Shown: piece after piece, positions 58,376 through 61,700 of the stretch | Layout of the letters: each line of letters opens with the position of its first letter | Numbering within the stretch: the first letter of the stretch is position 1 | DNA from: Ignavibacteriales bacterium | GTDB taxonomy: Bacteria; Bacteroidota; Ignavibacteria; Ignavibacteriales; Ignavibacteriaceae | DNA length: 64,000 nucleotides | Assembly: GCA_015709675.1 (NCBI GenBank) | Contig: CP054182.1 | Coordinates: forward strand, 3,451,448 to 3,515,447 | Direction of reading: 5' to 3' | Position numbers and translations under genes: made by a program | The notes under the pieces: model-generated | What the model saw: only the letters and a program-made list of their open reading frames with translations | The model's database searches: none | Told to the model about the DNA's origin: nothing

Positions 58376-58534
58376 TGATTAATCCTTATTTTTTATTGTT
58401 AAAAAATGTGATAATAAAAATATTCAACCTTGAAAATTTCAGCAATATTTTTGTGATAAGCGGAAAATCTGCTTATTGTTATCTGCCATTTAAAAGCAAG
58501 CAAAAAAATCATTATTATTTTTTTTTATTTTCAC
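58376..58534. other. AT-rich spacer with two hairpins
   Basis: No gene. AAAAATATT (58416-58424) faces AATATTTTT (58444-58452), and a 9-pair hairpin with a G-U pair and a 3-base loop lies at 58456-58476 (ATAAGC-GGA ... TCT-GCTTAT). Either may act on the divergent genes, the LiaF-like gene and nrdJ. Confidence 0.4.
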
Positions 58535-58550
58535 CGATTGCTTGCAATCG
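58535..58550. promoter_or_regulatory. Palindrome over the nrdJ -35 box
   Basis: CGATTGCTTGCAATCG: 7-base arms with TT between. It overlaps the -35 box (58542-58547), the place for a repressor. It does not match the NrdR box I know (ACACWATATWGTGT-like). Confidence 0.5.
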
Positions 58551-58573
58551 TAAAAGTATGCTTACTATATTTG
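58542..58573 (+). promoter_or_regulatory. Promoter of nrdJ
   Basis: TTGCAA (58542-58547) and a perfect TAnnTTTG element TATATTTG (58566-58573), with 18 bases between. Transcription would begin near 58578, exactly at the first stem of the folded leader. Confidence 0.6.
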
Positions 58574-58576
58574 CAC

Positions 58577-58684
58577 TGCAGGGGAGAAAAACTTGTCACC
58601 GGTTAGTTGCCCGAACAACATGATGATACCCTCTCAATCAATAACCGGTGAATTCCCGGCTGGGAGTGTGACAAAGGTCCTGCA
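58577..58684 (+). ncRNA. Structured nrdJ leader, candidate riboswitch
   Basis: Three nested helices: TGCAGG (58577-58582) with CCTGCA (58679-58684); TTGTCA (58593-58598) with TGACAA (58669-58674); CCGGTTA (58599-58605) with TAACCGG (58642-58648). Inside lie hairpin GTTG-CCCGAA-CAAC (58606-58619) and hairpin TCCC-GGCT-GGGA (58654-58665). Alternatively CCGG-TGAATTC-CCGG (58645-58659) can form, which resembles the GGUG-AAUUCC loop of cobalamin riboswitches. The canonical GCCACTG B12 box and the AGGGAA joint are not seen, so this is not a standard cobalamin element. As nrdJ encodes a B12 enzyme, a cobalamin-responsive or nucleotide-responsive element is a fair guess. About 70 bases then follow to the start codon, including the stem GTTCA-TGGTGGA-TGAAC. 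Confidence 0.55.
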
Positions 58685-58754
58685 CCCTAATAAGAGTTCG
58701 TTCATGGTGGATGAACTGAAAGAACATTATTAATATCTTAAACCCCGATACAAT

Positions 58755-61700
58755 ATGCAGATTAACAGGTACTATACTCAGTCTGGCGAGTCCCCATACT
58801 CATCATTGAAGTTTGTTTCCCGAACCTCAGAGATTAAAAACCCGGACGGTTCCAGTATTTTCAGAATGGAAAATGTTCAGGTCCCTGAATCCTGGTCTCA
58901 GGTGGCAACTGACATTATTGCGCAAAAATATTTTCGCCGGGCCGGTATCCCGGTAGTCCTCAAGAAAGCTAATGAGCCTGGTGTGCCGGAATGGCTGCAG
59001 CCCTCATTACCTGATGAAGAAGAACTGGCAAAACTCCCTCAAAAGGAGCCTTTCAGAGGTGAAACTGACTCCCGTGAAGTTTTTAACCGCCTGGCAGGCA
59101 ACTGGACTTACTGGGGCTGGAAAGCCGGCTATTTTGATTCAGAAGAGGATGCAAGAGCATTCTACGATGAACTCGTCTATATGCTTGCCAACCAGATGGC
59201 AGCTCCTAACAGCCCTCAGTGGTTTAATACCGGTCTGAACTGGGCCTACGGAATTACCGGCCCCTCTCAGGGTCATTTCTATGTTGATTTTGAAACGGGA
59301 GAGCTTTCCGCTTCCCCTGACGCTTATACCCATCCTCAGCCCCATGCCTGTTTCATTCAGTCAGTAGATGATGACCTGGTGAACGATGGCGGTATTATGG
59401 ATCTCTGGGTTCGTGAAGCCCGTCTATTTAAATACGGCTCTGGTACAGGAACCAACTTCTCGAATCTCCGCGGAGCCAATGAAAATCTCTCAGGAGGCGG
59501 TAAATCCTCAGGTCTCATGTCATTCCTGAAAATTGGTGACCGGGCAGCCGGTGCTATCAAATCCGGCGGAACTACCCGTAGAGCTGCCAAGATGGTCTGC
59601 CTTGATATGGATCATCCGGATATTGAAGAGTTTATCAACTGGAAAGTGGTTGAAGAACAAAAAGTTGCATCATTGGTTGCAGGCTCAAAACTCAACAATC
59701 TGCATCTGAATGCAATAATGAAGGCATGTTATGATGAGCATCCGGAAAACGACCGTTTTAATCCGAAATTAAATCTTAAGCTCCAGAGCGCAATCCGCGA
59801 AGCCCGCAAGGCAATGATTCCGCAGAACTATATTGACAGAGTTATTCATCTTGCTAAACTGGGCTATACTTCAATTGAATTCCCGGTTTATGACGTTGAC
59901 TGGAACTCCGAGGCCTATGGCTCCGTTTCAGGGCAGAACAGCAATAACTCAATCCGTGTGACCAATGAGTTCATGGAAGCCACTCTTAATGACGGCTACT
60001 GGAATCTCTACTGGAGAACAGAGAAGATTAAAGCAAAAAGAGAGAACAGAGCCCCGAAACCCAGCAAAACGGTTAAAGCAAGCGAACTCTGGGATCAGAT
60101 TGCCTATGCTGCATGGACTTCCGCAGATCCAGGCATTCAGTTCCACACAACCATCAATGAATGGCATACCTGCCCCGAGGGAGGGGAAATCAGGGCTTCT
60201 AATCCCTGCAGCGAGTATATGTTCCTTGATAATACAGCTTGCAATCTTGCTTCATTAAACCTTCTCAAATATTTTGATCTGGAGACCCACAGATTTGATA
60301 TTGACGGTTACCGGCATGCATCAAGGCTGTGGACCATTGTTCTTGAAATCAGTGTGCTCATGGCGCAGTTCCCAAGTAAAGAGATTGCAGAACTTAGTTA
60401 CCAGTACAGAACACTCGGTTTGGGGTATGCAAACCTCGGCTCTCTGCTGATGGTTCAGGGCATTCCTTATGATAGTGATGAAGGATTTGCTCTCTGCGGC
60501 GCGCTTACTGCAATCATGCACATGACTTCCTATGCAACCTCAGCCGAAATGGCAAAGGAGTTCGGACCGTTTACTAAATTCCCTGCAAACCGTGAGAATA
60601 TGCTGCGCGTCATCCGCAATCACCGTGCGGCGGTATATAACATGGACGGCACCAAATATGAAGGACTTTCAATCTCCCCCGTCGGAATTGATCCTCAGTT
60701 CTGCCCGGCTGATTTGCTTAAAGCAGCTAAAGAGGATGCAGACCGCGCCCTGCTGCTCGGAGAAGAATTCGGATACAGAAATGCTCAGGTGACCGTTATT
60801 GCTCCTACCGGAACTATTGGTCTGGTGATGGATTGCGATACCACAGGTGTTGAACCTGATTTTGCGTTAGTTAAATTCAAAAAACTCGCCGGCGGCGGTT
60901 ATTTCAAGATTATCAATCAGTCCATTCCCCCTGCTCTTGAAAAGCTCGGGTATAATGCTGACCAGATAGCTGAGATTGTCCGTTATGCCCGCGGCGCAGG
61001 AACACTTAAGGGCTCTCCTTTTATTAACGAAGAATCCCTTAAATTAAAGGGCTTCACAGCAGATATAATCGAACGAATTGAAAAATCGCTTCCGACGGTG
61101 TTTGATATAAGCTTCGCTTTTAATAAGTACACCATTGGTCAGGATTTTCTGATTAAGAAACTCGGCTTTCAGGAAGAGCAGATTAACTCCATGAGTTTTG
61201 ATCTTCTGAAACAGCTTGGTTTCTCAAAGCAGGAGATCAGTGCCGCAAATGACTATATCTGCGGTACCATGACCGTTGAAGGCGCCCCGTTCCTCAAGAA
61301 TGAACACCTTCCGGTATTTGACTGCGCGAATAAATGCGGAAAGCGCGGCACCCGTTTTATCAGAGCGACCGCCCACATCAAGATGATGGCAGCCGCACAG
61401 CCATTTATCTCAGGCGCAATCTCAAAGACGATCAATCTGCCTAATCAGGCATCAATTGAGGATATCAAGGATGCTTACTTCAAATCGTGGAAACTTGGTC
61501 TTAAAGCCAACGCACTCTACAGAGATGGTTCAAAGCTCTCACAGCCGCTGAACAGTGTTACTGATGAAGAACTTGAAAACATCATTGAAGAAAAAGAAAA
61601 GAACGATATCGTAAAGATTGCTGAGCGTATTATTCACCGCTATATTGCTCACCGCAGAAAACTTCCGGACAGAAGAACCGGTTATACACAGAAAGCGAAG

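Follow-up and report, generated by a model that had tools for sequence, protein, structure and literature searches.

The ribonucleotide reductase gene nrdJ of an Ignavibacteriales bacterium is preceded by a leader of 178 nt that, judged by sequence comparison, is a real, conserved and non-coding element in two species of one genus, and that is absent from the other genera searched. We analysed this leader (positions 58577-58754) within a window of 64,000 nt of contig CP054182.1, in which nrdJ starts at 58755. The leader is probably folded, and we tentatively read it as a genus-specific, cis-acting part of the nrdJ mRNA that would act on translation through a swap of pairing partners at its 5' end, a reading that we regard as quite possible though short of probable.

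According to this model the 5' end, UGCAGGGG, would have two mutually exclusive conserved partners. Pairing with UCCUGC (58678-58683) would form a helix, P1, closing a domain that encloses an inner stem, two hairpins and an invariant joining strand of 13 nt, while pairing with CCCC (58743-58746) and UGCA (58756-58759, part of the AUGCAG with which nrdJ opens) would cover the start of the gene. The default state would be OFF and the ON state would need help: once the closed domain is stabilised, whether by a ligand, by a protein or through the timing of transcription, the start codon would become accessible and more NrdJ would be made. Control at the level of translation is suggested by the conserved partners together with a computed ensemble that favours pairing of the start and a P1 helix that needs outside help. 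We infer that a ligand or a protein might supply this help; adenosylcobalamin (AdoCbl) or a nucleotide as the signal would be a guess from the identity of the gene. The parts of the leader are listed in Table 1.

Table 1. Features of the nrdJ locus, with positions in the window and identity to the leader of the relative G032.
Feature	Positions	Strand	Comparison with G032
Promoter-like elements, TTGC (58542-58545) and TATATTTG (58566-58573)	58542-58573	+	kept, equal spacing
5' end TGCAGGG, proposed P1 left strand; with G58584 also left strand of the proposed start-region pairing	58577-58583	+	7/7 identical
Joining strand GAGAAAAACTTGT	58584-58596	+	13/13 identical
Inner stem, left strand CACCGGTTA	58597-58605	+	7/9 identical
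First hairpin, GTTG-CCCGAA-CAAC	58606-58619	+	14/14 identical
Second hairpin, TGAT...ATCA, loop variable	58624-58640	+	12/17 identical, stem invariant
Inner stem, right strand TAACCGGTG	58642-58650	+	7/9 identical
Hairpin TTCCC-GGCT-GGGAG, window species only	58653-58666	+	inside the least conserved stretch, 58651-58677 (11/27 identical)
Proposed P1 right strand TCCTGCA	58678-58684	+	58678-58683 6/6 identical
3' hairpin AGTTCGTTCATGGTGGATGAACT	58695-58717	+	22/23 identical
Start-proximal block ATCTTAAACCCCGATA, whose CCCC (58743-58746) would pair with the 5' GGGG	58735-58750	+	16/16 identical
nrdJ, class II B12-dependent ribonucleotide reductase, 1200 aa	58755-62357	+

Conservation of the leader

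The comparison is one of two leaders, that of the window species and that of G032, another species of the same genus. With gaps counted as mismatches, the leader is identical at 136 of its 178 window positions, against 118 of 338 four-fold degenerate sites of nrdJ (Fisher p 1e-19). The silent sites of the gene appear to be near saturation, as their identity is this low while 751 of the first 800 NrdJ residues are the same in the two species. Aligned columns upstream of the promoter (98 of 160 identical) give a smaller difference, with the leader again higher (p 0.003). Conservation of a non-coding 5' untranslated region above its background, as expected of a structured cis-regulatory mRNA leader, was therefore found. 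The best-conserved parts of the leader coincide with elements of the model, namely both strands of P1, the joining strand, the first hairpin, the 3' hairpin and the start block (Table 1).

The preliminary description of this locus had allowed that a coding region might account for such conservation. Substitutions in the only long reading frame of the leader are spread evenly over the three codon positions (6, 7 and 5, with 35 sites each), so coding does not explain the conservation. The same count bears on a leader peptide or attenuation mechanism, in which the frame from TTG at 58593 to 58733, in frame with nrdJ, would be translated and coupled to the gene. An SD-like AGGGGAG precedes the TTG in both species and the frame has 46 codons in the window species; in G032, however, the TTG is followed by TAG, and no terminator-like site was found in the leader. 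We consider this explanation largely refuted and give it hardly any credence. The frame of G032 stays open into nrdJ after its TAG. The lack of a terminator-like site in the leader points to control of translation and not of termination. No SD-like tetramer lies at -20 to -4 of nrdJ in this genus, as is the case for nine of 69 leaders, both members of the genus included.

The elements upstream of the leader, TTGC and TATATTTG, fit the Bacteroidota -33/-7 promoter type. As TATATTTG is identical in the two species, a transcription start near 58577 is plausible. A perfect palindrome, CGATTGCTTGCAATCG, overlaps the -33 region at 58535-58550 in the window and is lost in G032.

Conservation of the first bases of the leader could also reflect constraint on promoter DNA. 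Under such a DNA-level constraint, the 5' block would comprise the initially transcribed part of the promoter and the operator of a regulator, and the RNA fold would be incidental. In keeping with this, identity peaks between the -7 box and 58621 (56 of 60 columns; 41 of the first 43 nt of the leader, 58577-58619, are identical), CTGCAG is a palindrome in DNA, and covariation is weak. However, three segments lying 100-170 nt downstream (58678-58683, 58695-58717 and 58735-58750) are equally conserved and match RNA partners. We judge an explanation at the level of DNA to be distinctly improbable.

Helices and fold stability

The preliminary description had reported three nested perfect helices beginning at the predicted transcription start. 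All three are present in the window sequence: an outer helix of TGCAGG (58577-58582) with CCTGCA (58679-58684), a second of TTGTCAC (58593-58599) with GTGACAA (58668-58674), and a third of CCGGTTA (58599-58605) with TAACCGG (58642-58648). Base 58599 belongs to both the second and the third helix. With 10 bp, UCACCGGUUA/UAACCGGUGA is the longest inner stem (pair probability 0.84-1.0); it competes with TTGTCAC/GTGACAA for UCAC and dominates. The further claim that about 70 bases lead from the helices to nrdJ is accurate, with 70 nt counted from the end of CCTGCA.

With trimming allowed, a nest of three perfect helices, each of at least 6 bp, occurred in four of 3000 dinucleotide shuffles; among 1184 stretches of 108 nt from the 64-kb window it was less rare, with 16 cases. 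Overall fold stability is unremarkable: z is -0.91 for 58577-58830, -1.43 for 58577-58690, -1.60 for 58577-58684, -2.01 for 58577-58725 and -2.12 for 58593-58672. It is lowest in G032, whose leader gives z of +0.23 and -0.52.

Of the stems, the outer (GCAGGG/UCCUGC) and the inner (GCCGGTT/AACCGGC) survive in G032, as do the hairpins, whereas TTGTCAC/GTGACAA is absent there. The inner stem carries one compensatory change, from A-U to G-C, and two of its end pairs are broken. Considering all 33 pairs, the two sequences hold this one compensatory pair and three broken pairs, and their covariation score is matched or exceeded by 245 of 500 shuffles. Pair probabilities of the 3' hairpin AGTTCGTTCATGGTGGATGAACT are 0.55-0.84 in the window species and 0.91-0.98 in G032.

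Pairing of the 5' end with the nrdJ start

In the unconstrained minimum-energy folds of both species, the 5' UGCA pairs with the UGCA, and the GGGG with the CCCC, of the start region. Computed probabilities are 0.23-0.42 for UGCA/UGCA and 0.52-0.53 for GGGG/CCCC in the window species, and 0.4-0.5 and 0.53-0.55, respectively, in G032. The first 8 nt are expected to form 3.7 pairs with the start region in the window species and 4.19 in G032, against a shuffle mean of 0.29. As many start pairs were reached by seven and five of 300 shuffled leaders (window species and G032, respectively), and by two and one of 300 leaders in which the first 8 nt had been replaced; as the two species are homologous, their tests are not independent. 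Half of this pairing may be coincidence, because AUGCA is common at the NrdJ starts of other genera, which have no such leader.

When transcripts of increasing length are folded, P1 is the first of the two pairings to appear. Its mean probability is 0.35-0.38 at 115-150 nt in the window species; in G032 it is 0.92 at 115 nt and 0.05-0.07 at 130-150 nt. P1 is lost once CCCC has been made, GGGG/CCCC reaching at 178 nt a probability of 0.88 in the window species and 0.91 in G032. When the transcript extends 30 nt into nrdJ, the mean over the complete start pairing is 0.45 and 0.51, respectively. In the full ensemble P1 is nearly absent (0.013 in the window species, below 0.001 in G032). Forcing P1 in place of the start pairing costs 1.95 kcal/mol in the window species and 5.4 kcal/mol in G032, where forced P1 is worse than an unpaired 5' end (-39.8 vs -41.4) and is outcompeted by a local hairpin, UCCUG/CAGGA. 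In the window species the start has a further potential partner in CUGCA, within the right strand of P1 (0.25-0.33).

One source of the outside stabilisation that P1 requires would be a small molecule. In such a riboswitch the joining strand and the first hairpin would form a pocket for AdoCbl, another corrinoid or a nucleotide, and the ligand would close P1 and expose the start. An invariant unpaired strand and a hairpin loop do lie within the closed domain, and nrdJ depends on AdoCbl and is apparently the only reductase; on the other hand, the leader matches no RNA family and is confined to two species of one genus. We consider a small-molecule riboswitch rather unlikely. The boldest form of our own model, equally unlikely in our estimation, would be a new class of translational riboswitch of one Ignavibacteria genus, in a lineage without NrdR, which senses AdoCbl or the supply of deoxynucleotides and whose 5' end either closes an aptamer or masks the start codon of the only reductase.

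Comparison with known RNA families

Translational riboswitches in which a closing helix competes with an anti-start pairing are a general kind. The leader resembles them in that its proposed 5' helix and start-codon pairing are mutually exclusive; it differs in having no known ligand, in its restriction to one genus and in its weak closing helix, which is weakest in G032.

When the whole window was searched with Rfam at the gathering cut-off, no family reached the cut-off on the nrdJ leader. Six matches with E up to 10 fell within 58480-58900, none of them to the cobalamin or the nrdJ model; weak matches at the leader, such as that to MicF, were discarded as chance.

A divergent cobalamin riboswitch, or a member of the RNA class reported upstream of nrdJ (RF03034), had both been proposed for this leader in the preliminary description. 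The association with the gene and the loop CCGG-TGAATTC-CCGG, which had been likened to part of the cobalamin core, speak for such an assignment. However, the second CCGG of the loop is missing in G032, neither model matches the leader at E up to 10, and both proposals now appear barely tenable. The covariance cut-off of RF00174 is not reached at the nrdJ leader. Nor was the conserved cobalamin core, CCGGUG...CCGG with a B12 box, found there, given the loss of the second CCGG in G032 and with the box judged through the Rfam model alone. RF00174 is tied to B12 genes, and this genome does contain one RF00174 match above the cut-off, located elsewhere (89.5 bits); by eye, it precedes a reading frame resembling a TonB-dependent receptor.

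RF03034 is listed as a cis-regulatory RNA and is reported in Streptomyces lividans TK24 (PMC8079986) and in S. ambofaciens (PMC8388888). The leader shares with it the position upstream of nrdJ. It differs in that the model, of 80 positions, does not reach its covariance cut-off in this genome, where scoring of 150 among 261 first-look candidates gave no match up to E 10, and in that RF03034 is reported there in another phylum. Of the three options raised at the outset, that of a new motif stands, as the leader fits no known RNA family. Among the titles and abstract openings surveyed, no paper title on an Ignavibacteria nrdJ leader was found.

Distribution of the leader

The genome holds a single copy of the leader. 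Across 80 genomes of the family, 75 of which have nrdJ, DNA matches with E below 0.001 were confined to this genome (G000) and G032; short BLAST matches with E up to 1, present in 74 of the 80, were attributed to chance. At the level of the order (164 genomes), DNA matches comprised this genome, G032 and one BLAST match in G147 (L184) that was rejected as chance: it falls within a reading frame of 423 aa encoded on the opposite strand, and the locus has no NrdJ stretch.

We built a covariance model, R1, from the two leaders and searched 91 sources with it, including 70 nrdJ upstream regions of the family; only the two leaders were convincing, and a match of 11.9 bits in L104 was dismissed as chance. 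Searches of 391 genomes of the class and 395 of the phylum, each an even sample under stricter filters, yielded nothing else convincing. Two matches of 25-26 bits from the class search were set aside as chance, one in G114 (L186) that crosses a 375-aa reading frame, glycosyltransferase-like by eye, and one in G375 (L187) within a 315-aa reading frame. Scanning contigs for NrdJ gained no third leader, none nearer than 80% identity being found among the matches listed. In viral contigs, a 14-mer pattern of the leader hit at least 120 stretches, being too short to discriminate, and a 19-mer pattern had no match.

The nrdJ leaders of other genera differ in composition. The 67 others that could be aligned at the start have a median GC of 0.24, compared with 0.44 and 0.42 in this genus, and neither alignment nor model search supports regarding them as the same RNA. 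L100 (GC 0.45), which is among these, has a more stable fold than the window leader (-49.4 vs -45.8 kcal/mol) but gave no match to model R1.

When 69 leaders were searched for long inverted repeats, there were seven for which at most one of 40 shuffles was as good, where about 2.5 are expected; the window species is among the seven through its inner stem, and G032 is not (16 of 40 shuffles). By eye, ten leaders of genera g3 and g9 (L078, L069, L050, L051, L041, L072, L059, L062, L038 and L040) contain a long-range inverted repeat about 110-200 nt upstream of nrdJ, with arms some 60-70 nt apart that flank a TAGCTTC/TAGTTTG-like box. The arms seem, again by eye, to co-vary (for example GATCGGGG/CTCCGATC, GTTGGAGT/ACTCCAAC and ATCAGGGT/ACCCTGAT, with some G-U pairs), making the repeat a candidate for an operator pair or a 5' RNA helix. 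In single leaders it does not exceed chance (7, 13 and 17 of 40 shuffles for L078, L069 and L041, respectively), and the joint alignment has seven pairs, two with double changes, and 17 unpaired cells. L035 carries a perfect 10-bp repeat, TTTAAGGGGC...GCCCCTTAAA, between 205 and 71 nt upstream of nrdJ, with a loop of 115 nt (matched by one of 40 shuffles). Three leaders of genus g10 (L039, L044 and L045) have a 10-bp stem, TATGAGTGAT/ATCACTCATA, with a 35-nt loop between 139 and 85 nt upstream of nrdJ (five to six of 40 shuffles as good), and variant forms occur in the other three leaders of that genus.

Reductase content and regulation

NrdJ appears to be the only ribonucleotide reductase of this genome. 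At E up to 0.001 the genome gave no hit to the models of NrdB (PF00268), NrdD (PF13597) or NrdR (PF22811); of 14 control genomes, seven, six and nine, respectively, were hit. Cobalamin riboswitches usually repress in the presence of the cofactor. With NrdJ apparently the sole reductase, repression by its own cofactor would make little sense, while activation by the cofactor, or feedback from a nucleotide or a protein, would.

Control by NrdR, the common transcriptional regulator of reductase genes (PMC9110341), is the usual bacterial means of setting their expression according to nucleotide state. NrdR is a protein acting on DNA, unlike the mechanism proposed here, and a search of the 80 family genomes detected it in none. 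Since NrdR is missing throughout the family and the leader occurs in one genus only, the leader is not simply a replacement for NrdR. The lack of NrdR and the sole reductase would also be consistent with autogenous or other protein control, in which NrdJ or an RNA-binding protein holds the leader in the manner of ribosomal proteins on their own mRNAs; the invariant hairpins are of a size that proteins bind. However, no RNA-binding partner is known and nrdJ of other genera does without the leader; we rate protein control as unlikely. The conserved leader on what appears to be the single reductase gene is a testable candidate for matching the supply of DNA precursors to need without NrdR and, if it senses a small molecule, would represent a riboswitch class outside Rfam release 15.

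Two further observations concern NrdJ itself. In G017 (C24:30128-32242) and G063 (C28:4870-6972) the NrdJ match falls into two parts, divided near query residues 196-224 and about 1.1-1.2 kb apart within one open frame of 1601-1603 codons, a pattern that suggests an intein. Many Alphaproteobacteria (L127, L130, L131, L134 and others) have a NrdJ whose first 300 residues are 70-75% identical to the protein studied here. Some NrdJ sequences from its own family are no closer, and gene transfer is therefore suggested.
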